A stretch of 37,720 bases of DNA from a virus, in IMG/VR virus record IMGVR_UViG_3300009702_000053, positions 1-37,720 of that record; one strand, given 5' to 3'. The notes beneath the pieces are model-generated. The model saw only the letters and a program-made list of their open reading frames with translations, was not told the DNA's origin and ran no database searches. Positions 3,396-37,344 of the stretch are shown piece after piece. Position numbers and translations under genes: made by a program. Each line of letters opens with the position of its first letter. Position 1 is the first letter of the stretch.

Positions 3396-3397
3396 TC

Positions 3398-7577: not shown

Positions 7578-7578
7578 C

Positions 7579-9709: not shown

Positions 9710-9721
9710 GGACATCTTATT

Positions 9722-11158: not shown

Positions 11159-11160
11159 CG

Positions 11161-18977: not shown

Positions 18978-19276
18978 GGGAATATTCTTCAGGAATACAA
19001 CCTGAGCCATGGACCTTTTGGATTGATGCATCCTCTAACCCGAGAACTGGATGTGGAAGCTACGTAGTTCAGGTCATGAAACCTGAGAGGATGGAGACTG
19101 TCAGGACTCGCCAAGTGGCCTTCTTAAAAGTTGAGGAAAATGGTCAAGTAATACTAAAACCCAGAGATGGGATGGAGGATCATTTCCTGCTGTCATGGTT
19201 CTATAAAGAACATTTCAAAGCAACAGGGGACTTAGAAGCTGATCTCAATCTATTGGTCTTGGGGGGTTTAAAATGA
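18974..19276 (+). CDS. Unknown protein at the end of the replication operon
   Basis: The 100-residue product overlaps the ATPase stop by four bases (ATGA). It has a beta-rich front (WTFWIDASSNPRTGCGSYVV) and a helical end (LEADLNLLVLGGLK). The WTFWIDAS...GCGSY stretch recalls the first strand pair of RNase H-like folds, but the other catalytic residues are not evident. AGTAATACT occurs inside it (19147-19155) and at its stop. Confidence 0.6.
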   Translation: MREYSSGIQPEPWTFWIDASSNPRTGCGSYVVQVMKPERMETVRTRQVAFLKVEENGQVILKPRDGMEDHFLLSWFYKEHFKATGDLEADLNLLVLGGLK

Positions 19277-19290
19277 GTAATACTCAATGA
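19273..19290 (+). promoter_or_regulatory. Five-codon minicistron with a perfect operator-like palindrome
   Basis: ATG 19273 overlaps the previous stop (ATGA), encodes MSNTQ and stops in TGA that overlaps the next ATG at 19287. The coupled minicistron would carry ribosomes from one gene to the next. It also contains TGAGTAATACTCA (19274-19286), a perfect 13-bp palindrome and the fullest form of the repeated motif. Confidence 0.45.
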
Positions 19291-19448
19291 CTTATGAAGA
19301 AGCCCTTGAATTCATCACTCCACTACTCGCGCTGGGGGATGAAGTAATACACCTACTCCTACTGGATCCAGACTTTGAAGCTCAGTTTGATGAGTCACTC
19401 AGAGCTATCTTCTGGGAAACACGCAAGTATATGCAGAAGAGGGGCTAG
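19287..19448 (+). CDS. 53-residue acidic helical protein of unknown function
   Basis: ATG 19287 opens a 53-codon frame with an acidic, helical product (MTYEEALEFITPLLALGDEV, then LLLLDPDFEAQFDESLRAIF). It has no clear ribosome site and is probably coupled to the minicistron before it. The sequence looks like real protein with good amphipathic pattern. A GTAATAC motif lies inside it (19344-19350). Confidence 0.55.
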   Translation: MTYEEALEFITPLLALGDEVIHLLLLDPDFEAQFDESLRAIFWETRKYMQKRG

Positions 19449-19536
19449 CTAGGCAATAGCCGAGAATACCCCATTACTGGGCCTAGCAGCCTCGTAGAAG
19501 CTATCAAATCATGGAGATGATATATCTCCCCAAGGA

Positions 19537-19568
19537 GCCTCAATAGTATTACGCTGTTGAGGCTTTTG
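19537..19568 (+). terminator. Rho-independent terminator with motif in loop
   Basis: GCCTCAA (19537-19543) pairs with TTGAGGC (19557-19563), followed by TTTTGTG. It would end the replication operon. The 13-base loop contains AGTATTAC, so a protein bound to the motif would sit on the terminator. Confidence 0.75.
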
Positions 19569-19617
19569 TGTAGCTATGTAGCCACGCCAGTTTCTATTTT
19601 CTCACACAAAGTATTAC

Positions 19618-19686
19618 GGAAACCCCCCTTTCGCCCCCCACAGTCATAAGACGGATGGATAGATGGACCTGGCAGGGGGGGTTTCC
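19618..19686. repeat. 11-bp inverted repeat
   Basis: GGAAACCCCCC (19618-19628) is the exact reverse complement of GGGGGGTTTCC (19676-19686). A GTATTAC motif abuts its left arm. It could form a cruciform or an RNA stem. Confidence 0.6.
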
Positions 19687-20013
19687 CTTCGGGTCCACCC
19701 CCGCCTGCTCAGGGCGACTCCCCCCTAATTATCAGCACAAACTCACTCTTCTCTTCTTTTCTCCCCTGAATCAAAAACCCCGTAAAAAGGAAACCCTATA
19801 CACTTTCCGACCCTTTCCCAGACACTTTCCTTTTTGGTTCTCTGTAGTTCTTCCTAGCCTCTGCCAAGTTACATCGTTAGGGAATAGTGGTGGGCGAGTA
19901 ATACTATTAGAGGTAGTAGGGGCACTCTGATATAGGTTTACTCAGAAGTGTGTATAAAGGTTTGCTCTGTAGGCCTGGTCAGGGAAGGTAGGACCCAGTA
20001 GGAAGGGCGCTAT

Positions 20014-20081
20014 AGTAGGCTAGGTAGGTTGGTCAGGCTAGTCAGGAGTATTACTTCAGTAGGCTAGGTAGGTTGGTCAGG
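20014..20081 (+). repeat. 24-bp direct repeat
   Basis: The same 24 bases, beginning AGTAGGCTAGGTAGG, occur at 20014-20037 and 20058-20081 with a 44-bp period. AGTATTACT (20047-20055) lies between them. CCCAGTAGG flanks both sides (near 19994 and 20083). The pattern resembles iterons. Confidence 0.7.
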
Positions 20082-20388
20082 GCCCAGTAGGCGGCAAACC
20101 GATCACATCACACACCCCTCCTCAGATCCCCCAGCCCAACCTTCCAACCGAATGCAACCTTAGATAGGTTGAAGCCGTAAAACACTGGTTATCTTTATGT
20201 TTCTCTGGAGGTTGCAGCCAGCCGACCCACCCCCCATTTCCGTAATCTGGCAGGAAGGGGTTCTCAGGCAACTGGAAAAGATCTACCAGAATTTCTATAT
20301 CCCCGAGGTATTACTAATATTTCTACCAATTTTTCGTTATATCCCCGGCCTACCCTCTCCGGCCCATTGTGCCTTCTACACTCTGCCC

Positions 20389-20423
20389 AACCCCCCGAAA
20401 ACCACTAGATATAGGGGGTTTTT
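20389..20423 (+). terminator. Candidate terminator
   Basis: AACCCCC (20389-20395) pairs with GGGGGTT (20414-20420), followed by TTTGG. It lies before the TGAGTGTTACTCA motif (20444-20456). No rightward gene of note precedes it; it may mark an RNA from the repeat region. Confidence 0.45.
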
Positions 20424-20645
20424 GGCGATCCTATAGAGAAACATGAGTGTTACTCACTTTTAGTTACTTTATACTAAGTAAAGTTAGCAGTGAGTACCTA
20501 AGTACTATAGGGGTGAAGTACCTATAATATCTTTAGCGGCGTTAGACGGCGTTCTAGGCACCTTCCTGGGCAATCTGGGAGGGAGCGCTGGTCCACTATA
20601 GAGCTGCCCAACCAACCCAACTGCCCTATCTGCCAAGTACTACTC

Positions 20646-21041
20646 CTACCGACCGATACGGACTACTCGCTCTTCTAGCCTACTAATGATCTTGGCGGCC
20701 TGGGCTAGAGTGGAGAGTTCGGATGGGGTGAGTTCATAGAGGGTAATACTGGTGAGGGCAGAGCCTACACCAAGTTTTGTTTTGGGGGGAGCTGACGCTT
20801 TAGGGGTAATACTCTCACTAGCCATTTGCTCAAACTTCCGTTTCCAGCTGCTCAAGGTCACTTGGCTTACTCCGAGGGACTTAGCCACCGCGGTCTGGGT
20901 TTCGCCTGATATTACTCGCTGGACGGCGTTGGCTTTGAAGCTGTCAGAGTATGAGGCTCTGGTGGCTTTGGGCTTCTTCTTCGGGGGAGACTTTCGAGCT
21001 GGACGCTTCTTGGTGGTTCGCTTCTTCTTGGGGGATGCCAT
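20646..21041 (-). CDS. HTH DNA-binding protein with histone H1-like basic tail
   Basis: This leftward gene encodes 131 residues. The first 30 are almost all Lys, Arg, Pro, Ser, Thr and Ala with SPKK and SPPKKK motifs, like an H1 tail. A transposase OrfA-like helix-turn-helix follows (SYSDSFKANAVQRVISGE, QTAVAKSLGVSQVTLSSW). The C-terminus is a leucine-rich helix that could dimerise. AAGGAG precedes the start. No transposase partner or inverted repeats are present, so it is not an insertion sequence. It sits within the AGTAWTACT cluster and carries two copies in its own coding sequence. A role as regulator, nucleoid-like protein or initiator is inferred. Confidence 0.75.
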   Translation of the reverse strand: MASPKKKRTTKKRPARKSPPKKKPKATRASYSDSFKANAVQRVISGETQTAVAKSLGVSQVTLSSWKRKFEQMASESITPKASAPPKTKLGVGSALTSITLYELTPSELSTLAQAAKIISRLEERVVRIGR

Positions 21042-21189: not shown

Positions 21190-21245
21190 AAAAGTTAACT
21201 ATCTTACAAATAATACTTGACAGGTTCCTAATAATTTAGTACGAT
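21190..21245 (+). promoter_or_regulatory. Promoter with shared upstream element before the HNH gene
   Basis: TTGACA at 21217-21222 and TACGAT at 21240-21245 are 17 bp apart. AAAAGT at 21190-21195 is 21 bp before the -35, as in the integrase promoter. The predicted start near 21252 coincides with ATG 21253, so the transcript may be leaderless. Confidence 0.65.
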
Positions 21246-22380: not shown

Positions 22381-22433
22381 GATTTATGAGACATATGACA
22401 TGTCTCGGAAAGAGAACTGAAAATGAAGAAACT
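22380..22433 (+). repeat. Duplicated leader, copy 1, with hairpin and six-codon upstream ORF
   Basis: This leader recurs exactly 360 bp downstream. GAGACAT (22388-22394) pairs with ATGTCTC (22400-22406), placing the start of an upstream ORF (MSRKEN, 22400-22420) inside the stem. That ORF stops two bases before ATG 22423. Its codons include the GGAAAGAG that serves as ribosome site of the main gene. Confidence 0.7.
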
Positions 22434-22739: not shown

Positions 22740-22793
22740 TGATTTAAGAGGCACATATTATGTCTCGGAAAGAGAACTGAAAATGAAGAAACT
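22740..22793 (+). repeat. Duplicated leader, copy 2
   Basis: The second copy keeps 34 bases identical (from the MSRKEN start at 22760 through the first codons of the main gene). The 5' hairpin arm has changed, but one change (A to G) keeps a G-U pair; the closing pair near the loop is lost. The upstream ORF stops at 22780, two bases before ATG 22783. Confidence 0.7.
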
Positions 22794-23037: not shown

Positions 23038-23071
23038 CACAATAACGTATTACTAAGAAAGAGAGTACAAA

Positions 23072-23761: not shown

Positions 23762-24154
23762 ATGATAGATACTAATACAAAAATCGACGCCTTTACACAA
23801 CGCTTCGTAGAATGGGCTTCCAAAATCGTGGTCAAGAACCAGTTCGTTAGTCCCGAGCTTGATGAAGAGATACTCCTTAATACATTACGTGGGCATGAGC
23901 AGGATACGGCGGCTCAACTGATTGAATCTCAAGAGATGGAGCTTGTTCTTATGGAGAATATCAAAGCCCTGAACGAGAAACGCAACATATATGTAGGAAC
24001 TCTCTTCGGAGAGATCCTTAGAGCAGCGGTGGACGCTCAGCTTGAGGTTCTTTCAGAAACGGAATCCCAAACAAAGCTAACTGATCAGAACCTACGTCTT
24101 GTTCGTATCTTCATTTCTTCTATTGAAAGCGCGATGTTACCAGACGATGATTAG
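23762..24154 (+). CDS. Unknown helical protein
   Basis: ATG 23762 (AGGAC upstream) gives about 130 residues, nearly all helical (MIDTNTKIDAFTQRFVEWAS, then IESQEMELVLMENIKALNEK). An in-frame start at 23690 lies within the previous gene and is less likely. Its end meets the convergent RHH gene with a 4-bp overlap. I do not recognise it. Confidence 0.65.
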   Translation: MIDTNTKIDAFTQRFVEWASKIVVKNQFVSPELDEEILLNTLRGHEQDTAAQLIESQEMELVLMENIKALNEKRNIYVGTLFGEILRAAVDAQLEVLSETESQTKLTDQNLRLVRIFISSIESAMLPDDD

Positions 24155-24417
24155 AACTCTGGGAACTCTTCTAGGTTGGCTGTCGCTATAAGCCAGCGTA
24201 ATACTGCTGAGCGGTTTAGATTCTGACCTCGTGCCCTCCGAAGTGTTACGAAGTTATCAAGCTTCTTAACCTCGCTTGGGTACAACGAGAATGTAGTGAT
24301 TCTGGCAAGATTAGGATCAGCGTTCTTACTGGCTTTTCGCTTTCGTTTCTTAGGCTCCTCGATCGGTTTCTCTCTGATCCGATTCAGGAGCTGCATTAGT
24401 TCGGGGGAGTGTTCCAT
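24151..24417 (-). CDS. Ribbon-helix-helix DNA-binding protein (first of a pair)
   Basis: The leftward product is about 88 residues from ATG at 24417 (AAAGGG nine bases before it). A basic linker (KKRKRKASK) precedes an RHH-like core: a strand (RITTFSLY), helix (SEVKKLDNFVTLRRARG) and helix (NRSAVLRWLIATAN). Proteins of this fold bind DNA as dimers on short palindromes. The upstream gene encodes a paralog and the two are separated by one base. GTAATACT (24198-24205) lies inside its coding sequence. Confidence 0.7.
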   Translation of the reverse strand: MEHSPELMQLLNRIREKPIEEPKKRKRKASKNADPNLARITTFSLYPSEVKKLDNFVTLRRARGQNLNRSAVLRWLIATANLEEFPEF

Positions 24418-24418
24418 T

Positions 24419-24646
24419 TTAGTAGACCCTTTCCATCTGATCGTAGGGAGCATGTCTAATGGCCCAGCGGATCAAGCTGCTCTGATTGATACGAGAGCCT
24501 TTCTTGTGCTCATGCTCCAGGACGGTTCGTATTATTTCAAGTTCTATTGGACCTATCTGCAGCGCGATTGTTTTGTCTTTGTCCATATCAGCAGTATTAC
24601 TGCCTTTGTTAGGTTTGTCAAGACCATTGTGAAAACGACCGAACAT
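24419..24646 (-). CDS. Ribbon-helix-helix DNA-binding protein (second of a pair)
   Basis: The leftward product has 75 residues from 24646, or 55 from the internal Met at 24586. The core KTIALQIG, then IELEIIRTVLEHEHKKG and NQSSLIRWAIRHA parallels the neighbouring RHH protein. GCAGTATTACTGC (24591-24603), a perfect 13-bp palindrome around the motif, lies just before the internal start. A candidate leftward promoter (TTACAG, 16 bp, TATACT) would begin transcripts almost at ATG 24646. Regulator or partition-type roles are possible. Confidence 0.65.
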   Translation of the reverse strand: MFGRFHNGLDKPNKGSNTADMDKDKTIALQIGPIELEIIRTVLEHEHKKGSRINQSSLIRWAIRHAPYDQMERVY

Positions 24647-24652
24647 GTTTCA

Positions 24653-24666
24653 GTATATGGTATATG
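24653..24666. repeat. Tandem heptamer at the RHH promoter
   Basis: GTATATG is repeated head to tail (24653-24659, 24660-24666) over the predicted leftward -10 of the RHH genes. It may be an operator for autoregulation. Confidence 0.4.
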
Positions 24667-24715
24667 TAAGGGACTGTAAGGTTCCTTATATTCTTAATTA
24701 GTCTCTGGGCTGACA

Positions 24716-24826
24716 ATGGCAGATGACAAAAGCCTGGGTATTAAGCGCTTCCTTTTCCCTGCCACTGTCACGCCTTTTATTAGACTTCGAGCCTTAGGTT
24801 GGTTTCTTGAACTCTCTCCAGCCTAA
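24716..24826 (+). CDS. Possible 36-residue leader peptide
   Basis: ATG 24716 opens a 36-codon frame (MADDKSLGIKRFLFPATVTP, then FIRLRALGWFLELSPA). No good ribosome site is seen. Its stop TAA (24824-24826) lies within the 3' arm of the first pseudoknot stem, so a translating ribosome would unfold the structure. It may be a regulatory leader ORF rather than a functional protein. Confidence 0.4.
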   Translation: MADDKSLGIKRFLFPATVTPFIRLRALGWFLELSPA

Positions 24827-24852
24827 GTGCTCTTTGCTTTACAGAGAGTTCA
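24793..24852 (+). promoter_or_regulatory. H-type RNA pseudoknot upstream of the HNH gene
   Basis: Stem 1 pairs CTTAGGTTGG (24793-24802) with CCAGCCTAAG (24818-24827), 10 bp with one G-U. Stem 2 pairs TGAACTCTCT (24808-24817) with AGAGAGTTCA (24843-24852), 10 perfect bp. The 5' arm of stem 2 lies in the loop of stem 1, and the stems abut with no gap. Loops are 5 and 15 bases. AGAGTTCA recurs at 24858-24865, next to ATG 24868, so stem 2 could re-pair there and block translation. Confidence 0.65.
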
Positions 24853-24867
24853 TTCAAAGAGTTCAAA

Positions 24868-25440
24868 ATGGATACTACTAAATGGGCCCCTATTCCGGGG
24901 TTTGATGGAGCATACGAGATACGTCTGATAGACAAAGACGTTCAAGTTCGTAGCTATCGCTCAAAGCGCGGATACCGATTGAAGGCCCCTAACATTCTTT
25001 TAGGCTACAAAAATAGTGATGGTAGGAGGATGTTCCTCCTAACTATGGATAGTGGAGAGAAGAGGCTACAACAGGCAGCATACTGGGCCTTATATACTTT
25101 TGATTCCATCCCCGTTGCCACTCAACAGGCTTTACACAGAAATGATATCCACAGCGACAATCGTTTGAGCAACCTCTATTGGGGCACATCCGCTGACAAT
25201 GCTCGTGATCGCACCAAGAACGGTAGAGGCCCCTCAAGCAGTCCTCCAAGAAACTTCGGAACCAACAACGGGAGTTCACGACTCAACTGGGATTTGGTTC
25301 ACTTAATTAGGACAACACCAGATGTCCCAGCAACCCTTTGGGCTAAGAGACTTGGGGTATCCCCAAGAACTATTATGCTTGCACGCAACCATATTACCTG
25401 GAAACAGGAAAACTGCCCAACAAACGAACCGACCATATGA
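24868..25440 (+). CDS. NUMOD4-HNH homing endonuclease
   Basis: The 190-residue product starts MDTTKWAPIPGFDGAYEIR (NUMOD4), continues with an HNH_3-like region (ALHRNDIHSDNRLSNLYWGT) and ends with a helix-turn-helix part (RLNWDLVHLIRTTPD, LGVSPRTI). It is a close paralog of the 7579 gene in order and sequence. AAAGAG (24856-24861) is its ribosome site, directly after the pseudoknot. Its stop overlaps the start of the protease/scaffold gene by four bases, so it is inserted at the head operon's edge. Confidence 0.88.
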   Translation: MDTTKWAPIPGFDGAYEIRLIDKDVQVRSYRSKRGYRLKAPNILLGYKNSDGRRMFLLTMDSGEKRLQQAAYWALYTFDSIPVATQQALHRNDIHSDNRLSNLYWGTSADNARDRTKNGRGPSSSPPRNFGTNNGSSRLNWDLVHLIRTTPDVPATLWAKRLGVSPRTIMLARNHITWKQENCPTNEPTI

Positions 25441-26750
25441 ACAATGTAACTCGCACAGCCAGCTTTCGCATTGACGGAGCAACACGAGATCCTGATGGAT
25501 ATCTCATTTGTGATGCACGTCTGACGAAGACTGGCATATTTACATATAAGAAGGATGGCAAGGAAGTCCGAGAACTGCGTCCATACTCAGAAGTATTCAA
25601 GTCTGACAGCTTGAAAACTTATGTTGGAGCACCGGCTACCGTTCGTCACCCCCGTAGTGGCTTCGTTACCCCGAAGAACCATAGACTATTGTCTGTTGGA
25701 ACACTTCTGGACGCACGACCTAACAAGAAATACGTGGTGGGAAGAATCAAAATTACAGACTCTGCAGTAGCCGACAAGGTTGAAAGCGGAGAACTGTGTG
25801 AAGTTTCGCTTGGGTATAGAGCAGATCTTGCTCCTTCCAAGGATCCACTAGTTGCAGACAGAGTGCAGCGTAACATTGTCGTGAACCATATAGCTCTCTT
25901 ATATAAAGGGGAAGCAAGACTGGGTTCCGATGTTTCAATAATGCGTCTTGATAGCGCAGATAACGTAATTATCGAGGATAACCTTATGACTACCGAAAAC
26001 GTAGAGCGTACAGACGCTGAACTTACAGAGGAACCCAAAGAAGAAGCCTCTGTTGAAGAAACAAAAACAGACTCCGAAGAGACCGCCGCTCCTGAAGAGC
26101 AGGCTGAGAAGACTGACGCAGAAGAGCAGGCCGAAGAGACCGCCGCTCCTGAAGAGCAGGCTGAGAAGACTGATGCAGAAGAGTCCGCTCCTGCAGAAGA
26201 TTCTACTAAAGAAGATACTCCAGCCGAAGATGCTGCTAATGAAGCACCTTCCGAGGGGGATGAACCAGCTTCTGAAGAAGCAGCAGACCCAAATGAAGCA
26301 GAAGAGAACAATCCAGATCAGGAAGAGCCTGCACCAGCCTGGGCTACCGCATTAGACGCGAAGCTTGACTCCATTCTTGAGGCTCTCAAGCCTTCCGAGA
26401 ATACAGACTCCACGACTGAAGAGAAGACTGACTCAAAGGATATCTTTGAGGCTGCAGTCCAGCGCTCTGTTCGTGCTCGTCTTATTCATTCTACAGTTTT
26501 GTCCGAGGAGAAGCAGGATGGTCTTTCAGACCGTGAGCTTGCTCTGCAGGTCATCAAGCGCTTTGACAGCAAATTTGAGCTAGGTGAGGAGAGCACAGAC
26601 GCTCTTATCTCTATGGCTGAATGGGCTGCCAAGGTAAACCGGGAAGATAGTACGGAAAATGGTTTCCGTTCTCGCTTCCGTTCCTCAATCCGCTCTGGAT
26701 CTAACAAGACCGACCACATGGACGCTCTTGATAAGATCTTGGGTAACTAA
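25437..26750 (+). CDS. Prohead protease (DUF2213 type) fused to an acidic scaffold
   Basis: The first 175 residues resemble DUF2213 prohead proteases: RDPDGYLICDARLTKTG, then VGAPATVRHPR and a GELCEVSLGYRADL segment with the likely catalytic Ser and a nearby His (VVNHIALL). From about 185 the protein is a long Glu/Ala/Pro-rich region with a 19-residue tandem repeat, and then a helical C-terminus. This is the usual protease-scaffold arrangement: the acidic part shapes the prohead and is then degraded. ATG at 25986, just before the acidic region, could give a separate scaffold product, though no strong ribosome site precedes it. Confidence 0.8.
   Translation: MNNVTRTASFRIDGATRDPDGYLICDARLTKTGIFTYKKDGKEVRELRPYSEVFKSDSLKTYVGAPATVRHPRSGFVTPKNHRLLSVGTLLDARPNKKYVVGRIKITDSAVADKVESGELCEVSLGYRADLAPSKDPLVADRVQRNIVVNHIALLYKGEARLGSDVSIMRLDSADNVIIEDNLMTTENVERTDAELTEEPKEEASVEETKTDSEETAAPEEQAEKTDAEEQAEETAAPEEQAEKTDAEESAPAEDSTKEDTPAEDAANEAPSEGDEPASEEAADPNEAEENNPDQEEPAPAWATALDAKLDSILEALKPSENTDSTTEEKTDSKDIFEAAVQRSVRARLIHSTVLSEEKQDGLSDRELALQVIKRFDSKFELGEESTDALISMAEWAAKVNREDSTENGFRSRFRSSIRSGSNKTDHMDALDKILGN
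26076..26183 (+). repeat. 57-bp tandem repeat in the scaffold region
   Basis: A 57-base unit starting GAAGAGACCGCC at 26076 recurs at 26133, almost unchanged for about 51 bases. It encodes the acidic 19-residue unit beginning EETAAPEEQAEKTDAEE. Copy number probably varies between relatives. Confidence 0.75.
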
Positions 26751-26795
26751 CTTTTCAGCCATCTAAGGCTAATTCTATAACTAAGGATATTCATT

Positions 26796-27260
26796 ATGGC
26801 AAATGTAACTCCAGCAAAGGGTCTTCCTGGGCAGCCTAAGACGGTTGGCGACAGAGTTTCCCTAATCGCAGCTGAGGCAATTAAGCCAGGCAAGCTTGTG
26901 GTTGTCACTGTTGACAACGAGGCTACTTGTGAACTACCTAACGCTACCGGAGAAGTAACTGGTGGTCGTGCATTGGGTATTGCAATTCGTGACCGTCATC
27001 TCACCGACTCTGATCTTGAGTATCAGGCAGGTGATGAGGTTCTTATTCAGACTTCTGGTGAAGTTTGGGTAACGACCGAAGCAGCAGCTGTTTCTGGTGG
27101 TAAGGCTTATGTTCGTTTCTCCGCTACTGGCGCAGAAGAGCTTGGCTCCTTCCGAGACGACGCAGATACCTCTGACGCAGTAGCCCTTCCAGGCGCTGTC
27201 TTCTCTTCCACTGCAGGCGACGGCGAGGCTATTTCGGTCAAGCTTGGCGCACTTGTATAA
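26796..27260 (+). CDS. Head decoration / capsid cement protein
   Basis: The 154-residue product is beta-rich (DRVSLIAAEAIKPGKLVVVT, then GRALGIAIRDRHL and GDEVLIQTSGEVWVTTEAAA) like DUF2190-type capsid cement or decoration proteins. It lies between protease/scaffold and major capsid protein, where such genes are normally found. AAGGA precedes ATG 26796. Confidence 0.75.
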   Translation: MANVTPAKGLPGQPKTVGDRVSLIAAEAIKPGKLVVVTVDNEATCELPNATGEVTGGRALGIAIRDRHLTDSDLEYQAGDEVLIQTSGEVWVTTEAAAVSGGKAYVRFSATGAEELGSFRDDADTSDAVALPGAVFSSTAGDGEAISVKLGALV

Positions 27261-27298
27261 TCTCTTCTCTTTCTATTATTAGTTAGGACATTCATATT

Positions 27299-28282
27299 AT
27301 GTATAACGACGATTTCAAGAAGGCTCTTGCAGAGACCTCACAGATTCGCCTGGATGCTAAGGTAGAGCAGCTTACTGGCTCTCTAAAGCTTGACTCCGCT
27401 GGCGTAAACGCTCTTCAGGACCGACTTTCCTTCATCGAGCAGGACATTGTTCGCACGATTTACCGTGATGAGCAGGAAGTGCTTCGCGCTGTCCCTGTGA
27501 GGGTTGGTCTTTCCGCAGGATTCAACAGCTACACCTTCTACACCTCTGACACCGCTGGCCGCGCTGCAATGATGCATCCTGGTCAGACCGAGCGTCCATT
27601 GGTTACCACTAACCTGACCCCAACGAGCAAGGCAATCGTTGAGTTCGGTGCTGCTTACTCCTTCACGCTTAGTGATATGGAGCGCGCAACCATTCTCAAT
27701 ATTGATGACGTTCGTGACCAGGCTCGTGCATGTGCTTCGGCAATCATGCGCTCTGTGAACGGCTACGCTCTTTCCGGCGACACAAACAAGGGAACCACGG
27801 GTCTTGCCGACGACGCAAGCGTAACTACCGAGACTCTTGCTGGTGGTGACCTTACCTCTGATACCGCTGCTGTGACCTTCAAGGACATGCAGGGCCTTAT
27901 CAATGCTGTAGCAGTGAACTCCGGTGGTGTTCATCGCTGCAACAAGGTTCTTATGCCAATGGCAGTATGGAGCCACCTTACAACGACTCCTTACGAGAAC
28001 GTCTCTGGTGCAACTCTTATGGAGAAGCTTCGTGACGTGAACCCCGGTGTTACGTTTGAGCTTGTTGTAGCTCTTACCGCCTTGGGCGCAACCTCGAAGG
28101 ATCGTGTCATCGCAATGGAAGCTAAGGACGGAAATGGCGCTGTCATTGTTCCTTCGCTTTACGAAGAGGCACCTGTCTTCCAGAATGGCTTCCTCTACAA
28201 GGTTGACGCTCGTGGCGTAACCGCTGGCTGGGTAACCAAGCACAGCGAGTCTCTCGTTTACGGCGACTTCACTGTAGCGTAA
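27299..28282 (+). CDS. Major capsid protein (DUF2184 type)
   Basis: The 327-residue protein matches DUF2184-type HK97-fold capsid proteins. Supporting segments are LSFIEQDIVRTIYRDEQEVL, GFNSYTFYTSDTAGRA, the ATILNIDD spine helix region and AIMRSVNGYALSGD. Codon use shifts towards GC-ending codons, as expected of the most abundant virion protein. AGGA precedes ATG 27299. Three hairpins follow the gene. Confidence 0.92.
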   Translation: MYNDDFKKALAETSQIRLDAKVEQLTGSLKLDSAGVNALQDRLSFIEQDIVRTIYRDEQEVLRAVPVRVGLSAGFNSYTFYTSDTAGRAAMMHPGQTERPLVTTNLTPTSKAIVEFGAAYSFTLSDMERATILNIDDVRDQARACASAIMRSVNGYALSGDTNKGTTGLADDASVTTETLAGGDLTSDTAAVTFKDMQGLINAVAVNSGGVHRCNKVLMPMAVWSHLTTTPYENVSGATLMEKLRDVNPGVTFELVVALTALGATSKDRVIAMEAKDGNGAVIVPSLYEEAPVFQNGFLYKVDARGVTAGWVTKHSESLVYGDFTVA

Positions 28283-28293
28283 GTTGTATAGGT

Positions 28294-28351
28294 CTGCTCC
28301 CTAACGGTTGAGCAGCCCTTCCTACAGGACCCAAGCTTTTGGGTTTGGGTC
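28294..28351 (+). terminator. Two hairpins after the capsid gene
   Basis: CTGCTC (28294-28299) pairs with GAGCAG (28310-28315). GACCCAA (28328-28334) pairs with TTGGGTC (28345-28351), followed by TTGTT. They probably stabilise or partly terminate the capsid mRNA. Confidence 0.5.
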
Positions 28352-28415
28352 TTGTTGAAAGGGTAACAACGAAATACTTATATTACTCTCCTTTCTTGAA
28401 CATATTTAGCACATT

Positions 28416-28463
28416 AAAGGTCGGGCCGGTTTCTTACTCTCTCTCTTTCCCGGTCCGGCCTTT
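28416..28463 (+). terminator. Long GC-rich hairpin, probable terminator
   Basis: The arm at 28416-28429 (AAAGGTCGGGCCGG) pairs with 28450-28463 (CCGGTCCGGCCTTT) over 14 bp with two G-U pairs. The loop is 20 bases of pyrimidines. It lies just before the 28486 gene and separates capsid from connector expression. Confidence 0.65.
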
Positions 28464-28485
28464 ACCTTATCCGGAGCAATAGCTA

Positions 28486-28779
28486 ATGGCAGATACAGCG
28501 CCCACCTATAGCGAGTTCACCACAGCTTATCCAACATTTAGCAAGCTGCCTCAGGCATATGTCCAGGCAAAGCTAGATGATGCTGAGGCTATGGAAAACC
28601 CTACCTACTGGGGTGATATCTTCTCTATTGCTGTTGCTACCCAAGCAGCTCATCTGCTCTCTATCAATCCATTTGGATCCCAGGTTCAGTTGAATAGCGA
28701 TCAAGGCGAAACCGTCTATTCCAAATACTATAAAGAGGTGCTCCTCCCTAAGCTTGGAATACGTGGAATGGTACTCTAA
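28486..28779 (+). CDS. Head-tail connector, DUF4054 type
   Basis: The 97-residue protein has the family start (YSEFTTAYPTFSKLPQAYVQ) and a helical body (DIFSIAVATQAAHLLSI), ending with YSKYYKEVLLPKLGIRG. DUF4054 proteins sit under the portal as head completion adaptors. The stop overlaps the next start by one base. Confidence 0.85.
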   Translation: MADTAPTYSEFTTAYPTFSKLPQAYVQAKLDDAEAMENPTYWGDIFSIAVATQAAHLLSINPFGSQVQLNSDQGETVYSKYYKEVLLPKLGIRGMVL

Positions 28780-29237
28780 TGGCTAAGAACGTAGAGATCA
28801 AAGTCACTGAGAACACGAGATTGAAAAAGAAGATATATGGCAAACAGCCATCGCTTATAATTGGTGTTCTAGAACCTGAAAGTGACATCCAGTATCTGGG
28901 CAAAGATGTGACCGTTGGGCAGGTAGCCCTGTGGAACCATCAGGGCACAGCTAGCATCCCTGCTCGTCCATTCCTAACGATCTATGTTAATGAGAACAGG
29001 GATAAGATTACTAAACAGTTTTCCGCAGCTATGGCTCGTGTGACCTTTGCGGGCGAGGATGAGAGAAAAGCTCTTGGCAAATTGGGCAAGGCTTACACCA
29101 AAGGAATACAGACCCGTATCCGTAAGAACATTCTACCAAAGAATAAGGAAAGCACTCTTCGACACAAAGAAGGCTCAACCCCTCTCATCGATACGCAGGT
29201 TCTACTCAATTCAATCAGTTGGGATATAGAGAAGTAA
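28779..29237 (+). CDS. Head-tail joining / tail completion protein
   Basis: The 152-residue product has VALWNHQGTASIPARPFLT, the signature of HK97 gp10-like and virion morphogenesis proteins. A helical basic region and a final DTQVLLNSISWDI follow. These proteins join the finished head and tail. Coupling to the DUF4054 gene (TAATG) supports the call. Confidence 0.75.
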   Translation: MAKNVEIKVTENTRLKKKIYGKQPSLIIGVLEPESDIQYLGKDVTVGQVALWNHQGTASIPARPFLTIYVNENRDKITKQFSAAMARVTFAGEDERKALGKLGKAYTKGIQTRIRKNILPKNKESTLRHKEGSTPLIDTQVLLNSISWDIEK

Positions 29238-29240
29238 CAG

Positions 29241-29843
29241 ATGACCCAGCTTGCTCAATTACAAACGGATATTACGACTTGGATCGAGACGCTATCCGGC
29301 CTTAGTGTCGAATGGGGCCAAGAGCCTCAGTACATGCACATTGATGCATACATTCTGGCTTATGAAGGCTCATACTCTTCACAAGGAAGAGACGAGCGCT
29401 TCTTTGAATACAACTCTTCCACCGGACAGCTGGATTTAACCATGTCTGGGATTCGACAGCTTGGCCTAACACTCTCATTCCGCTCCGACAGTCAAGCATG
29501 GGGAGAAAATGCTGCCTACTACGCAGAGATGTTTCGTCTCAATCTACGAAGTCCTTCTTCTGTTGATATGAGAGCAGCAGCAAAGTTCGCCCTGGTTCGA
29601 GCAGAGGAAGGTATACGAACCGATTACCCTTTTAATGGGCAGATATGGAGCCAGGTGGATCTACCTCTGGTTTTGGCTGTTCGTCTCAACACAGCCGACG
29701 CAAATTATGATGGTGCATATATTGATACCATCAAGATTACCTCTCAGAAGCGTGTCATCACGGAAGAGGGTGAATATGTGGTTGATGAGAACGGTGATTT
29801 GGTAATCGATGAAGGCGATACCACAACTATTACCTCTTCCTAA
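29241..29843 (+). CDS. Tail terminator / neck protein candidate
   Basis: The 200-residue product starts with a helix (LAQLQTDITTWIETLSGL) followed by WGQEPQYMHIDAYILAYEG, the pattern of neck/tail terminator proteins in DUF3383-sheath phages. The acidic C-terminus (ITEEGEYVVDENGDLVI) forms a small repeat of strand-turn units. The next genes are a fibre-like protein and the sheath. The call relies on order. Confidence 0.65.
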   Translation: MTQLAQLQTDITTWIETLSGLSVEWGQEPQYMHIDAYILAYEGSYSSQGRDERFFEYNSSTGQLDLTMSGIRQLGLTLSFRSDSQAWGENAAYYAEMFRLNLRSPSSVDMRAAAKFALVRAEEGIRTDYPFNGQIWSQVDLPLVLAVRLNTADANYDGAYIDTIKITSQKRVITEEGEYVVDENGDLVIDEGDTTTITSS

Positions 29844-29855
29844 GGATTTACTATA

Positions 29856-31373
29856 ATGATTGGAACAGTCCAGCATAAGACACTAAAAGATACCAACGCA
29901 CATTCCATTGTTTGGCAGGAAGTGGCAGATACCACTGCCCGTCTCGCTCTGATCCCAACGGCAGAGGATAATGGTAAGGTTGTAAAGCAGCTTGATGACT
30001 CCTCCTACTGGGTTCTCGCTGACTACTCTGGTCCTACTTATGTGGAGATTACCTCTACTGGTGTAGCTGCTGTTACTTCCGTCTTTGGACAAACCGGAGA
30101 TGTTAGTAAAGCAGATGTTGCCCTAGATAACGTTGATAATCTTCTCAACAACCTTTCAGCTAGCACAGACCCCGGACTTACTGACGATTCTGATAGCGGA
30201 TACTCGACGGGCTCAGTGTGGGTAAACACTACGACCCCCGCCGCCTTCATTCTTATTACCTCGGCCCCTGGCGCGGCAGACTGGAACCAGATTGACGCCG
30301 CTGGCGGCGGTAGTGGAACTGTAGATGTTGTCTCGAACGTAGCGGCAAGCCGTATTCTCGGGCGTACTTCGGCGGGGTCGGGTGATTCCGAGGAGCTTAC
30401 CGCGGCGCAAACCCGCACGCTGCTCAATGTTGAGGACGGCGCTACTGCTGACCAAACAGGCGCGGAAATCAAAACGGCATACGAGGGCGAAACTAATACA
30501 AACGCCTATACAGACGCCGAAAAGACTAAACTAACTGGCATCGAGACTGGTGCGGATAAAACCGATACAGCTAACGTAACTGCCGCAGGCGCGGTCATGG
30601 ACTCCGAGGTTACAAACCTCTCGGGCATTAAGACACTAACCGTTCCTGATGCCACGACAATCTCAGTCTTCGCTAAGACGCTCCTCGATGATACAGATGC
30701 AGCAGTCGCACGCACAACGCTAGATGCAGCACGAACTCCGCTCTCTGGCGCGGGCGCTCCGGGTGTTGCAACGGGCAACGGCTATCCGATTGGCACGCCT
30801 TATGCGGATACCACCGCAGATGAGGCGTACATCCTCACGGATAACACGTCTGGTTCAAATGTCTGGTCTACGCCAACAGGCCCAGTAACAGGCGGAAGTT
30901 CATATGTTACGTACACGATGGGTGGCCGCTGGACTGGAACCGCATTGAATACTTGGTACTCCGGCACGGCGCAGATGGTAAACTCGGACGCGGGTAGCCT
31001 CGCAACCTCTGCAGGCACAGGAGCTGATCCAGCTATGACCTGGAACTTTATGGGCGTTGTAGTCCCTGCTGCAGGCCAAATAGTGCGCGTTCGTTTCTAC
31101 TACTACATCAATAAGGCCGGAGATGATGGCGTCATCCACCTTTACAAAATGGTTCCAACAAACAACTCGACCAGCGTTACCAAAACTTCTATTGCTAGTG
31201 TTGACATTGGCGCAGCCGCGCCAGGTATCAACCTTCCACAGCTTGTCGATTCTGGCGCATTGACCACGGTGGTTGCTGCACATGACGTGCTCCGCCTTTG
31301 GAAGAAGAACGGCGCAACTGTTGCCAGCACGTCGAGCAATATCTCAGCTAATGTTCTCATCAAGCTGGACTAA
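29856..31373 (+). CDS. Fibre-like virion protein (neck or head fibre candidate)
   Basis: The 505-residue product has an N-terminal virion-attachment-like domain (VADTTARLALIPTAEDNGK), a linker and a region with phage fibre motifs: DVALDNVDNLLNN, RTLLNVEDGATADQTG, YTDAEKTKLTGIETGADKT and a GAVMDSEVTNL segment. The C-terminus is a beta-rich receptor-binding-like domain. Such repeats are typical of trimeric fibres. Lying between neck and sheath genes rather than at the baseplate, it may be a neck whisker or head fibre. Its middle part is richer in GC than its neighbours, which suggests exchange. Confidence 0.7.
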   Translation: MIGTVQHKTLKDTNAHSIVWQEVADTTARLALIPTAEDNGKVVKQLDDSSYWVLADYSGPTYVEITSTGVAAVTSVFGQTGDVSKADVALDNVDNLLNNLSASTDPGLTDDSDSGYSTGSVWVNTTTPAAFILITSAPGAADWNQIDAAGGGSGTVDVVSNVAASRILGRTSAGSGDSEELTAAQTRTLLNVEDGATADQTGAEIKTAYEGETNTNAYTDAEKTKLTGIETGADKTDTANVTAAGAVMDSEVTNLSGIKTLTVPDATTISVFAKTLLDDTDAAVARTTLDAARTPLSGAGAPGVATGNGYPIGTPYADTTADEAYILTDNTSGSNVWSTPTGPVTGGSSYVTYTMGGRWTGTALNTWYSGTAQMVNSDAGSLATSAGTGADPAMTWNFMGVVVPAAGQIVRVRFYYYINKAGDDGVIHLYKMVPTNNSTSVTKTSIASVDIGAAAPGINLPQLVDSGALTTVVAAHDVLRLWKKNGATVASTSSNISANVLIKLD

Positions 31374-31388
31374 GCATAAACACTTTCC

Positions 31389-31405
31389 GCGAGTATTGGA
31401 CTCGC
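31389..31405 (+). terminator. Small hairpin before the sheath gene
   Basis: GCGAGT (31389-31394) pairs with ACTCGC (31400-31405) over a 5-base loop, followed by TTCATCTT. It may weakly terminate or process the mRNA before the sheath gene. Confidence 0.4.
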
Positions 31406-31437
31406 TTCATCTTATTAACTAACAAGGATTTATTACT

Positions 31438-32766
31438 ATGAGTGATATCTCAAGCATCATCACGGTGAATATTACCCGTGAAACATCTGTGCCAACCGCA
31501 CAGGGCTTCGGGGTTCCATGCTTCGCAGTTCAGCACTCGCATTTCGCGGATCGTGTGCGTGAATACTCCTCTGTTGCCGAGATGGTAACGGATGGTTTCG
31601 CCACTACCGAACCGGGCTATCTTGCTGCCTCTGCTGCCTTAGCTCAGAACCCAAAACTAACCGCTGTAAAAATCGGTCGCCTAGCCAATATGCAGACCCA
31701 GAGCGTAGAGCTTACTCCTACCAACACTACGGAAGGCTTTGTCTACTCTCTGACCGTTACTGGCCCAAGTGCAACGTCCGGTGAGACCTTCACGTACACG
31801 GTGCAGGCTTCTGACACCGTTGCACTCATCATTGATGGCCTAGTAGCCGATATGGCCGCTCATACAGGGGACTGGACTCCTACTGATAACGCCACGAAGT
31901 TGACTATTGATGCCGATAATGCTGGTGACCGCTTTGCATTCAGTGCATATGGCACCTCTCTGGACTTCAAGGATGTTACACCAACTTCCAGCTCCCTTGC
32001 AGACGACCTGAACGCTATTCTCGCTGAGGATGACGACTGGTACGCCCTTTCAATCGAGTCTACGGATAAGGCATCCATCTCGGCAGCTGCTACATGGGCT
32101 GAAACCAATAACAAGCTCTTCGTAGCTCGTACTGCTGATGATGAGTGTCATGATGCTGCCGTTTCCAACGACATAATTAGCACTCTTGCAGCAGCTACGC
32201 AGACCAGAACGGCTATCTTCTTCCATAGAGGCAACCTTGAGTTCCTTGATGCCGCAATGCTTGGTAAGGCCCTGCCTTACGATGCTGGCTCCATCAACTG
32301 GGCTTGGAAGTCTCTTGCTTCGATGACCGCTGATACGCTGACCACAGCACAGCAGAGCCAGATCGACACCAAGGGTGGTAACGTATATGTTACCAAGGCC
32401 GGTGTAAACGTAACCAAGTTTGGTTTCACCACACATGGTGAGGGCATTGACCTTGTTCGCGGCTCCGACTGGGTTGCAGCTCGTGCAGCTGAGCGTCTTT
32501 TCGCTCTGCTTCTGGCACGTCCTAAGCTTCCATACACGGATGCGGGTCTGACGGCTTGTAAGAGCGTTGTTGAAGGCGTTCTTGAGGATGGTATTTCTCG
32601 CGACTTCATCGCAGCTTACCCAGCTCCTATCGTTACGGTTCCTCTCGCAGCCAATGTATCCGCTTCGAATAAGGCAAACCGAGTTGTTGATGCAGTTGGA
32701 TTCTCAGCTGTTTTGGCCGGTGCCATCAACAAGGTTACCGTAAACGGAACTCTTTCCCTTACCTAA
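31438..32766 (+). CDS. Contractile tail sheath protein (DUF3383 type)
   Basis: The 442-residue protein starts SDISSIITVNITRETSVPTA and has VPCFAVQHSHF and an AALAQNPKLTAVKIGRL segment, all matching DUF3383 sheath proteins. The later part contains GVNVTKFGFTTHGEGIDLVR and a C-terminal domain with INKVTVNGTLSL. It polymerises around the tube and contracts to drive injection, showing that the phage is a myovirus. AAGGA precedes ATG 31438. Confidence 0.92.
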   Translation: MSDISSIITVNITRETSVPTAQGFGVPCFAVQHSHFADRVREYSSVAEMVTDGFATTEPGYLAASAALAQNPKLTAVKIGRLANMQTQSVELTPTNTTEGFVYSLTVTGPSATSGETFTYTVQASDTVALIIDGLVADMAAHTGDWTPTDNATKLTIDADNAGDRFAFSAYGTSLDFKDVTPTSSSLADDLNAILAEDDDWYALSIESTDKASISAAATWAETNNKLFVARTADDECHDAAVSNDIISTLAAATQTRTAIFFHRGNLEFLDAAMLGKALPYDAGSINWAWKSLASMTADTLTTAQQSQIDTKGGNVYVTKAGVNVTKFGFTTHGEGIDLVRGSDWVAARAAERLFALLLARPKLPYTDAGLTACKSVVEGVLEDGISRDFIAAYPAPIVTVPLAANVSASNKANRVVDAVGFSAVLAGAINKVTVNGTLSLT

Positions 32767-32793
32767 TAAGCTTTACCTCAAAGGAAATATACA

Positions 32794-33225
32794 ATGGCAA
32801 CTTACATTTATGACTCTGACCGCGTTATGTTCGTGTTCGCAGGCATCCCTATCACGGGTGGCTACACGGACGGTGACTTCATCAGTATTACTGTTCCAGA
32901 TGCCTTCACTATGAAGGTTGGAACCTCTGGTGAAGTATCTCGCTCTAAGACTCGAAACAGAACCGCAACCATCGAGTTGCATTTGATGTCTACTTCGCCT
33001 TTCAATGCCGTTCTCTCTGGTATCCACAATGCGGATCTTGAGACCAGTGGTGGAGCAGGCGTTGGAGAGTTCAACGTAACCGATCTCAACGGAACCAGCA
33101 CTCACGTAGCAGGCAATGCTTGGATCGTGAAGGCACCAGATGTGACCTATGGCGCTGAGGCTGTTGAACTTGTTTGGACCTTCAATGCAGACCGCTTGAC
33201 CAACTTTGTTGGTGGAACCCGATAA
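32794..33225 (+). CDS. Tail tube protein (DUF3277 type)
   Basis: The 143-residue protein is beta-rich (YIYDSDRVMFVFAGIPITGG, then TMKVGTSGEVSRSKTRNRTA) and follows the sheath, the constant place of the tube gene. The size and GI.I.GY.DGDFI pattern match DUF3277 tube proteins. AAGGAAA precedes the start. Confidence 0.88.
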   Translation: MATYIYDSDRVMFVFAGIPITGGYTDGDFISITVPDAFTMKVGTSGEVSRSKTRNRTATIELHLMSTSPFNAVLSGIHNADLETSGGAGVGEFNVTDLNGTSTHVAGNAWIVKAPDVTYGAEAVELVWTFNADRLTNFVGGTR

Positions 33226-33252
33226 GGGAACTGCCTGAAAGGAATATGAACT

Positions 33253-33684
33253 ATGAGTATGCTTAGTGAAAAGCGTGTGGAGGTAGGTACAAAGACCTTC
33301 GAAATCAAGCAGCTTCCCCTAGGGAAGTCGCAGGAGGTTTTCATGTACTTGCTCAACAAGGCAAAGGGACTTGATCTACAACATGATGAAGAGGGTAATA
33401 CCGAGATCAACTGGGTGTCGGTAGTCTCCCTTCTGAATAATGAAGATGTGATGTTCCTCCGGGAGCGTCTTCTAAACGCGAACTGTCATATGCTCAACGA
33501 TAATGAGAAATGGGTTCCTGTAACGAAGCACGTTCTTGAGGCACATTTACGTCTTGGACAAATGGTCAACCTGTTAGCACAGGCCCTGGCTGTGAACTAC
33601 TCCGATTTCTTAGCAGACCTCGATATAGAGTCCCTAGCAGCGCAGCTGGGAAGTCTGGTGGGCGGGGTCGAGACAGCCGCGTAA
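33253..33684 (+). CDS. Tail assembly chaperone (G-like, short form)
   Basis: The 143-residue protein lies between tube and tape measure genes, the place of lambda G-like chaperones. It is helical in its second half (HLRLGQMVNLLAQALAVNYS) and ends ...GSLVGGVETAA. The frame behind it (-1) stays open to the tape measure start, so a longer form is probably made by frameshifting. Confidence 0.82.
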   Translation: MSMLSEKRVEVGTKTFEIKQLPLGKSQEVFMYLLNKAKGLDLQHDEEGNTEINWVSVVSLLNNEDVMFLRERLLNANCHMLNDNEKWVPVTKHVLEAHLRLGQMVNLLAQALAVNYSDFLADLDIESLAAQLGSLVGGVETAA

Positions 33685-33872
33685 AGCCACCAGCAGATAT
33701 TGCTGATGTGGAATGGCTCGCTATAACCATTGCTACCAGCAAATACTACAACGACTCTTATTACACTATCCTGACCAAATGGAGCATCTACGAAGCTTCT
33801 AAAGCCTATGATGTAATACAATATCTGAACGCTGCAGAGGAAGAAGCCTACAAGGAAGCGAAGAAAGACTAA
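33651..33872 (+). CDS. Frameshift extension of the tail assembly chaperone (T-like)
   Basis: In the -1 frame relative to the chaperone, the sequence encodes about 60 convincing residues (PPADIADVEWLAITIATSKY, then SYYTILTKWSIYEASKAYDV) and stops at 33870-33872, immediately before the tape measure ATG. It has no good start or ribosome site of its own. GGGAAGT at 33648-33654 resembles the lambda slippery site GGGAAAG and is my candidate; the A-site pairing after slippage is poor, so the exact site is uncertain. Confidence 0.7.
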   Translation, partial: KSGGRGRDSRVKPPADIADVEWLAITIATSKYYNDSYYTILTKWSIYEASKAYDVIQYLNAAEEEAYKEAKKD

Positions 33873-35186
33873 ATGTCAATACAAGCCCTAAAGACCGTAG
33901 CCGTCAAGCTGACCACCAAGGTAGATACCAAGGGGCTTGATAAGGCTGAGAAGAAGAGCAAACGGCTGATTGGCACCATGAAGAAGCTTGGTGTCGCACT
34001 CGCTACGGCTTTCTCTGTTAAGAAGGCAGTAGATGTCTTCAAAGCAACGCTGTCTACCGCCGATGCGCTAGCTAAACAGGCACGAGCCGCCAAGATCAGT
34101 GTGGCAGCGTTGGAGGAGATGCGATTTGTCTATGATCATTTAGGTGTCGCTCCAGAAATAGCACTTAAGGCAGCTGGTAAGTTCTTTACTTACCTAGGTG
34201 ACAAGGCAAAGCCTACCGAGAAAGCACTTAGAAAGCTGCACCTTACATTCAAGGACTTCGGTGGCCTTAATCGCGCCCAGGCATTAGAGAAGCTTCTACT
34301 CACAACCGCCAAGTCAGGCCTATCCGCTGCTGAACAGCTAGCCATCCTCAAAAATACTATTGGTGATGATGCAGCCTTGCAGCTCGAAAAGGCCCTTAGA
34401 CAAGGCCCTGCTGCCTTCGAGAAAGCGAAGAATGACTTCATCCAGGCCGGAGGTGCTGCCTTCGCTGGCATGGCGGCTATGGGTGAGGAGAGCCAAGATC
34501 AGTTTGCCAATATTGCCCAGACCCTAGCACATGTAAAGGTTGCTTTTACCCAAGCGTTTCTTGGTAACAACCCTGAGGAGGCCAGAAAGCGCGGTAAAGT
34601 TATTGGGGATGCATTCCTCAAGATAGCCGAGAACATGGATATGATCCTGTCGATAGCAGGTGTTCTGTTTGGATTACTGAGCCTAGGGTCCGTTATCGGC
34701 CCGCTTGGTAAGGTAGCGTCAGCACTCAAAATAGTGTGGGGTTGGGGATCCAAGATCGTGGCAGTACTTGGAGTGCTCGGTGAGATTATTGCGGGTGTTA
34801 CCGCGCCCGTATGGGGATGGGTAGCAGCAATAGCAGCTGTTGTAGCGGGCGTTGTCCTGCTTTGGAAGAACTGGGATATCGTTTCGGAAAAGCTAGAACA
34901 GGCATGGAACTGGATCAAAAAGATTGCCTCTGGTGCTATGGGTAAGGTCCTCAAGTTCTTCGGTTCTGGAGATGATGGCACCGTTTCGGCACCAGCTACC
35001 ACCTTCAACAGCCCAAAGTATTTCCCTCCATCAGTAAGAGCTAAATATGGTGACACAAGAACTACCAATAACAACAATCATATGACCGTCAATGTAGATG
35101 CTCGTGGGCAGAATCCAGCACAAACAGTTGATCAGATTGAGAAGATGCAGAGACGCCAGAACCGCGCTGCATATGCAGGAAGCTAA
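33873..35186 (+). CDS. Tail tape measure protein
   Basis: The 437-residue protein follows the chaperone and is helix-rich. It has an N-terminal KAEKKSKRLIGTMKKLG stretch, a tape-measure-like region (DALAKQARAAKISVAALEEM) and a hydrophobic middle (MDMILSIAGVLFGLLSLGSV, then a second membrane-like part before LLWKNW). It sets tail length and may help form the DNA channel. At about 0.15 nm per residue it predicts a short tail near 65 nm. Confidence 0.88.
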   Translation: MSIQALKTVAVKLTTKVDTKGLDKAEKKSKRLIGTMKKLGVALATAFSVKKAVDVFKATLSTADALAKQARAAKISVAALEEMRFVYDHLGVAPEIALKAAGKFFTYLGDKAKPTEKALRKLHLTFKDFGGLNRAQALEKLLLTTAKSGLSAAEQLAILKNTIGDDAALQLEKALRQGPAAFEKAKNDFIQAGGAAFAGMAAMGEESQDQFANIAQTLAHVKVAFTQAFLGNNPEEARKRGKVIGDAFLKIAENMDMILSIAGVLFGLLSLGSVIGPLGKVASALKIVWGWGSKIVAVLGVLGEIIAGVTAPVWGWVAAIAAVVAGVVLLWKNWDIVSEKLEQAWNWIKKIASGAMGKVLKFFGSGDDGTVSAPATTFNSPKYFPPSVRAKYGDTRTTNNNNHMTVNVDARGQNPAQTVDQIEKMQRRQNRAAYAGS

Positions 35187-35189
35187 ACA

Positions 35190-36002
35190 ATGCCAGAACT
35201 TGAAAACACAGAAACTAAGCTGCTCTTAAGCTGGTCTGAGTACCAACTGAACATCTCCACCCAAGAGTTTGAGCAGAAGATAGTTGGCATTCAGTTTGAT
35301 GCCGTAGTATCTGAGTTCTTCTCTCGATCTGGTGAACTCTCTTCTCATCCACGAGCTGGTGATTTCCCTATCTACGATAACTATGTAGCTAATCCAGTAA
35401 CTGTCTCTATTGAGGCAGAGGTAACCAACACTCCTGTCATTCCTGCTACGACCCACATGGGAGATGTTACCGGCAGCAAGCAACTAGTGGATCTTAAGGA
35501 CATACGAAAGTACGGAGGGCAGTATGAGCAGGTTGACCCAGGCCTTGCCTCTGCTCGACTAGCAAGGAACCTTGCCGCATCGGTTGGCAATGAGCTTCCT
35601 TTGCCTCTTAGATTGCGCCCAGACAAGCGACTTCCTGAGGGTGCAAATCTTCTTGTGTTTGATGGAGCTGTAAAGCGTGTAGTTCACGTCTTCAGCGAAA
35701 TACAGAGACTCATGGACCAACGCATTCCGCTCACCCTCGCGCTGACTAACTTCAAGAACTACCCATTTGAGAACATGTATATCACCCAGTTCCAGTCTCC
35801 TTATGAGCCTGACACAGGAGATGCGATGATTGTTCGTCTAGATTTTGAACAGTCAGAGGTATCCCAGGGTGCTCAGTCCTCGCGCAAGTCAACACCCACC
35901 AAGAAACCACAGCATAAGCCAAAGCCCCGAAGACGCCCAAAGCCAGTTATCCCTAAGAAACTCTCCGATGACATTCTGTCTCTATCAAGAGGGCAATACT
36001 AA
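35190..36002 (+). CDS. Dit-like baseplate protein with basic C-terminus
   Basis: The 270-residue product has a Dit-like N-terminal beta domain (IVGIQFDAVVSEFFSRSGEL, SHPRAGDFPIYDNYV) and a second domain (QRIPLTLALTNFKNYPFENM, then YITQFQSPYEPDTGDAM) as in simple contractile baseplates such as cyanophage Pam3. The last 50 residues are Lys/Arg/Pro-rich (KKPQHKPKPRRRPKPVIPKK), which is unusual and may contact DNA or acidic surfaces. The stop overlaps the next start. Confidence 0.78.
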   Translation: MPELENTETKLLLSWSEYQLNISTQEFEQKIVGIQFDAVVSEFFSRSGELSSHPRAGDFPIYDNYVANPVTVSIEAEVTNTPVIPATTHMGDVTGSKQLVDLKDIRKYGGQYEQVDPGLASARLARNLAASVGNELPLPLRLRPDKRLPEGANLLVFDGAVKRVVHVFSEIQRLMDQRIPLTLALTNFKNYPFENMYITQFQSPYEPDTGDAMIVRLDFEQSEVSQGAQSSRKSTPTKKPQHKPKPRRRPKPVIPKKLSDDILSLSRGQY

Positions 36003-36322
36003 TGCAAAGTATTCCATTACCAACGAGAAATGAGCCAAAAGCTACATATGCCGTTCAGCTTGATGGTAAGTCATTTGATTTAACCTTTGTTTGGAACTCC
36101 AAAACAGACAATTGGACACTCAATGTTGCTACAAGCTCTGGCACTCATTTGTCTGATGGCATACTCCTTGCTCCAGGTATCAATCTTTTGAGAAATCTTG
36201 CAGCAGATGACCGTCCTGGTGGCGCTCTGGTTCTGACTAACTTTGAAAACAAGATCCCTACCTACTCTAGTATTGAGACCAGTGAACTCTTTTATGTAGA
36301 GGTTGCGGAGCTGGAGGGATAA
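36002..36322 (+). CDS. Baseplate plug protein, Pam3 gp18-like
   Basis: The 106-residue protein has AVQLDGKSFDLTFVWNSKTD and WTLNVATSSGTHLSDGILLA, the pattern of the cyanophage Pam3 baseplate plug family, in which an LDG strand is followed by a WN...W.L core and a G-L-L segment. It closes the tail tube near the hub. It is coupled to both neighbours by TAATG overlaps. Confidence 0.8.
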   Translation: MQSIPLPTRNEPKATYAVQLDGKSFDLTFVWNSKTDNWTLNVATSSGTHLSDGILLAPGINLLRNLAADDRPGGALVLTNFENKIPTYSSIETSELFYVEVAELEG

Positions 36323-37335: not shown

Positions 37336-37344
37336 GGAAGCGAA

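Follow-up and report, generated by a model that had tools for sequence, protein, structure and literature searches.

The DNA analysed here (the window, 37,720 bases) spans the whole of one virus record and comes from a tailed phage, whose gene content includes a contractile-tail sheath protein (phrog_205), a Mu F-like head protein, a DUF2213 protease, a major capsid protein, a tyrosine integrase and a DnaB-like helicase. On its + strand, a 190-aa HNH endonuclease gene (24868-25440; HNH_3 below the curated cut-off, phrog_1492 with E 1.8e-17) is the first cistron of a capsid operon, and its stop codon overlaps the start codon (ATGA) of a DUF2213 prohead protease/scaffold gene at 25437-26750. Because of this overlap, and because the DUF2213 gene has no evident Shine-Dalgarno (SD) sequence of its own, control exerted at the ribosome site of the HNH gene would probably reach the prohead protease. 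The HNH gene, preceded by a structured leader, probably drives the overlapping capsid protease gene, and the leader would control the capsid operon, beyond a selfish gene alone, to which a previous sequence-only reading had assigned it.

The head module of this phage is split, with the gene at the small-terminase position, TerL, portal and the Mu F-like head gene F at 7062-11961 and the DUF2213 and major capsid protein genes at 24868-37720. About 13-13.5 kb lie between F (11161-11961) and the DUF2213 gene (from 25437), an interval filled by the integrase, the DnaB-like helicase and other replication genes; two relatives (L063 and L064) have F and DUF2213 side by side. Located at the right edge of the module that interrupts the head cluster, the leader would form the 5′ portion of the capsid transcript. 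In two HNH genes that are 41% identical (7579-8205 and 24868-25440), the 3′ end runs over the start codon of an essential head gene (the TerL GTG at 8198 and the DUF2213 ATG at 25437), which suggests repeated insertion with translational coupling. Repeated sequences were also seen elsewhere in the window. The palindromic 7-mer GTAWTAC, often as AGTAWTACT, occurs 23 times vs. 2.4 expected, densely at about 19147-20812 and otherwise scattered, and has the look of an array of operators, iterons or partition sites. One copy (24591-24603) forms a perfect palindrome, GCAGTATTACTGC, on the -10 element of a leftward promoter (24621-24593) that belongs to a small ribbon-helix-helix-like gene. The small genes at 22423 and 22783 have a near-identical leader, ATGTCTCGGAAAGAGAACTGAAAATGAAGAAACT (22393-22425 and 22755-22785), a probable local duplication.

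Directly upstream of the HNH gene, the arms of two 10-bp stems interlock as those of an H-type pseudoknot. When rechecked on the sequence, the stem coordinates given by the sequence-only reading proved exact to the base. Stem 1 (S1) pairs 24793-24802 with 24818-24827 (CTTAGGTTGG with CCAGCCTAAG) through nine Watson-Crick pairs and one U-G pair, and stem 2 (S2) pairs 24808-24817 with 24843-24852 (TGAACTCTCT with AGAGAGTTCA) through ten perfect pairs. The stems are gapless, as had been claimed, with the arms abutting at 24817/24818. Loop 1 (L1; TTTCT, 24803-24807) is 5 nt long and would cross S2, and loop 3 (L3; 24828-24842) comprises 15 nt. The reading had missed a 4-bp extension of S1 (24789-24792, GAGC, with 24829-24832) past a bulged U at 24828, bringing the stem to 14 bp, and in nested folds S1 has a predicted probability of about 0.98-0.998. 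This longer S1 would shorten L3 to 10 nt, and the knot may be strained. The last pair of the pseudoknot is 3 nt before the SD-like AAAGAG of the HNH gene (24856-24861), and the phage's own genes carry similar GAGAG or AAAGAG motifs 6-8 nt before their ATG codons.

In order to estimate how often such an arrangement arises by chance, we searched for pseudoknots in which each stem had 10 bp or more and no more than one GU pair, with L1 of at most 12 nt, a gap of at most 1 nt and L3 of at most 25 nt. Exactly one candidate with two 10-bp stems was found in the whole window, and none was found on either strand of 200 dinucleotide-preserving shuffles of it. When the threshold was lowered to stems of at least 9 bp, 4 of the 200 shuffled windows had a candidate, and among 4000 shuffles restricted to the leader, 2 had stems of at least 8 bp. 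Likewise, in 584 kb of other phage loci, of which many are mutually related, no candidate reached 10 bp and two reached 9 bp. A chance origin of the pseudoknot is very unlikely, with the proviso that the pattern was picked after the sequence had been read and the chance figures overstate its significance somewhat. Together with a rough energy estimate, these statistics make the predicted pseudoknot beside the ribosome site well supported.

The whole leader (about 24660-24867) is structured, a feature absent from the sequence-only reading. The segment 24655-24867 folds better than all 200 of its shuffles, with a z of -3.85; its complement likewise beats every shuffle (z of -3.98), and folding energy alone is thus no proof of an RNA acting in the sense direction. 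The segment 24701-24850 was among the most structured of 1504 windows and strands scanned. Two further predicted elements had been overlooked, a weak, terminator-like hairpin of 12 pairs at the start of the leader (24664-24691, +) and a strong upstream helix, I1 (24711-24722/24759-24770, +), in which 11 of 12 positions pair with a mean pair probability of 0.91. The nested minimum-energy fold also contains a possible 6-bp closing helix, P1 (24702-24707/24842-24847), which competes with S2. Using a single generic pseudoknot penalty, which makes these energies rough, S1 plus S2 was estimated to be 7-11 kcal/mol more stable than the best nested fold, and the P1-closed OFF state to lie about 4 kcal/mol above the ON state. 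In the scan of 150-nt windows the lowest z (-5.95) belonged to 4151-4300 on the - strand, inside the gene at 3392-4546. The window at 11201-11350 (+), inside the Mu F-like head gene, was among the most structured of the phage (z of -5.9) and contains an H-type candidate with two 8-bp stems at 11244.

The sequence-only reading had further proposed that a second copy of AGAGTTCA could replace the 3′ arm of S2 and cover the ribosome binding site (RBS), as part of a translational switch. This copy does occur at 24858-24865, over the SD-like AAAGAG, and as the 9-mer AGAGTTCAA (24858-24866, +) it can pair with 24807-24815, positions shared with the 5′ arm of S2. AGAGTTCA is present seven times in the window vs. 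2.0 expected, with three copies here within 58 bp (one inverted and two direct). The competing repeat is thus real, but the energies do not favor the closed form, as the RBS stays open in the default state, with S2 formed, and the competing helix falls short of S2 by about 3.5 kcal/mol. In the most stable estimate (S1 plus S2), 24856-24861 is outside the stems, and the form combining S1 with the competing pairing (S2′) lies approximately 4.5-6 kcal/mol above it; in RBS-sequestering hairpins of homing endonuclease genes, by comparison, it is the most stable structure that covers the RBS. According to these predictions, an open RBS is the rule and pairing of the competing repeat the exception. 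An imperfect 13-nt tandem repeat makes up 24842-24867 and resembles the phage's own RBSs, such as AAAGAGAGTACAAAATG at 23071, which makes a duplicated ribosome site a simple origin of the competing arm.

No homologous leader was found in viral contigs or in phage or plasmid records when these were searched with the leader DNA and with the 17-nt core of the knot. Scans with the HNH, DUF2213, major capsid protein, TerL, portal, sheath and helicase proteins found no close relatives, the best matches reaching about 41% protein identity. The sequence-only reading had tied the element to an HNH endonuclease as a selfish gene, a link that has no support for this class of enzyme as a whole, with both paralogs in the window and three of five phage homologs having no such leader. 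The paralog at 7579-8205 (41% identical) begins 2 nt past the gene at the small-terminase position and overlaps TerL at its 3′ end, and the paralog at 21244 likewise has no comparable leader. Among the five HNH homologs fetched, those of Microcystis, Pseudomonas and Erwinia phages directly adjoin the gene before them or overlap it; that of Bacillus phage Stahl, with a gap of about 60 nt, and the truncated homolog of EBPR siphovirus 3 were not informative. A leader travelling as part of an HNH mobile unit was rejected in view of these paralogs and abutting homologs. A conserved capsid-operon element was rejected as well, since no such leader precedes DUF2213 in the phage loci L063-L066; DUF2213 directly follows F or lies within about 100 bp of it in L063 and L064, and other ORFs lie between the two genes in L065 and L066. 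The best reading is that the element is lineage-specific.

A 36-codon ORF (24716-24826, +) ends inside the 3′ arm of S1, as had been noted, and had been offered as a possible means of attenuation. An ATG-initiated ORF of at least 36 codons occurs in 6.5% of shuffled leaders, making this one unremarkable, and it is probably not a gene. Attenuation through it is unlikely, in that its AUG is buried in helix I1, no SD sequence precedes it and no homolog was found, and a ribosome halted at 24826 would cover the 5′ arm common to both alternative pairings. A frameshift-stimulating pseudoknot was excluded, as a TGA at 24808, inside the knot, closes the HNH frame. A group I intron or an IscB/HEARO-type RNA was rejected on the grounds that Rfam gave no match, that the HNH protein has only 190 aa and that the DUF2213 gene after it is intact. 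Rfam searches returned nothing at the gathering score, and for 24400-25600 nothing up to an E of 5. With one sequence, no Rfam match and no homologous leader found, the claim of a riboswitch or an unreported RNA family cannot be made.

The structure is probably functional, and a translational control element of the capsid operon is our best inference, to which we give an even chance of being correct. As no convincing sigma-70 promoter was found on the + strand upstream of the leader, in a search confined to sites of that type, transcription of the leader is assumed. In the proposed mechanism, a capsid transcript running rightward would begin with the leader (about 24660-24867), compactly folded and ending in the S1-S2 pseudoknot. 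By default, S2 would occupy the common arm 24808-24817, the ribosome site would stay free, and the coupling at the ATGA overlap would let both the HNH endonuclease and the essential prohead protease be translated. Capture of the 3′ arm of S2, by a protein or by the closing helix 24702-24707/24842-24847, would let the common arm turn to 24858-24866 as its partner, covering the ribosome site. In this way the element would determine how strongly, or when, the first two capsid-operon cistrons are expressed. The stronger form of this proposal, with two alternative pseudoknots that share one 5′ arm (S2 opening and S2′ closing the ribosome site) and switch a homing-type endonuclease and its coupled capsid protease, we consider unlikely.

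The open default fold is also what would be expected if no switching took place and the structure were an RBS-adjacent stabilizer, standby site or insulator that protects the 5′ end of the transcript or frees the ribosome site, the second AGAGTTCA being a tandem-duplicated RBS. We regard this explanation as possible, though not as the likely one. Neither S1 nor S2 sequesters the RBS, the imperfect 13-nt repeat resembles RBSs of the phage such as that at 23071, and a precedent exists in seg43(25), in which a stable hairpin is found just upstream of an uncovered RBS (PMC2988022). Such a stabilizer leaves the 9-nt repeat match to the shared arm unexplained, although duplication of the RBS would give this match for free. 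The position of the leader at a module junction, the arrangement in L063 and L064, where DUF2213 comes after F with no such leader, and the lack of demonstrable conservation are all consistent with a functionless relic, i.e., inverted repeats left over where the genome was rearranged. This we judge improbable, however, as the paired 10-bp stems are unmatched in shuffles or other phage DNA, and perfect arms decay quickly when they are not under selection.

The similar folding of both strands would also result from DNA palindromes, and the locus could be a DNA operator at which the AGAGTTCA copies and other inverted repeats bind a phage regulator, e.g., the ribbon-helix-helix-like proteins encoded divergently at 24151-24646. 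The clustering of three copies of the motif within 58 bp agrees with this, and the small divergent genes look ribbon-helix-helix by eye, but their products are not recognized by Pfam or PHROGs. Moreover, GTAWTAC is a better candidate motif for a regulator, with one copy in a perfect palindrome on the -10 element of the leftward promoter, a promoter at which AGAGTTCA is absent, and gapless interlocking arms are not called for by an operator. An operator is in our view a doubtful explanation of the locus, and the translational control element is retained as the preferred reading.

Among known systems, the phage pseudoknot at a translation start is the T4 gene 32 operator, which a 2010 review considered to be possibly the sole viral case of a pseudoknot in translational autoregulation; the same paper mentions an rpsO-type operator pseudoknot (PMC3014915). 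As in the gene 32 leaders of T4, T2 and RB69, which serve as autogenous translational operators (PMC3014915), the structure predicted here is an H-type, coaxially stackable pseudoknot that precedes the ribosome site in the leader of a phage mRNA. The two differ in that the gene 32 knot is 67 nt upstream of the AUG, whereas the present one has 10-bp stems and ends 3 nt from the SD. The gene downstream is also different, encoding an HNH endonuclease instead of a single-strand binding protein; there are no A+U-rich UUAA repeats, a competing copy of one arm overlaps the RBS, and a protein ligand is only proposed. In the rpsO leader, which controls ribosomal protein S15, pseudoknot and hairpin alternatives form at the ribosome site, but this is a host gene with a ribosomal protein as ligand and another sequence.

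Structured RNA at the translation start of HNH and other homing endonuclease genes is known from I-TevI, Aeh1 mobE, T4 segB and seg43(25), and in T-even phages hairpins form over the RBS of such genes (PMC2988022). The leader of seg43(25), from Aeromonas phage 25, resembles the present one in that a stable structure directly precedes an RBS which it does not cover. Homing endonuclease leaders are simple hairpins, mostly RBS-sequestering, and carry an internal late promoter. The structure predicted here is a pseudoknot that by default leaves the RBS open, and the search for sigma-70-type sites, which showed no strong one, recognized no late promoter. In the titles and abstracts covered by our literature search, no report of a pseudoknot associated with a homing or HNH endonuclease was found. 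By the features compared, the element resembles the gene 32 and seg43 leaders combined and is a member of neither group. If the proposed control element is real, it would show how a mobile nuclease gene stays in step with an essential, overlapping capsid cistron, and it would be a second phage leader pseudoknot at a ribosome site, extending the class represented by gene 32.
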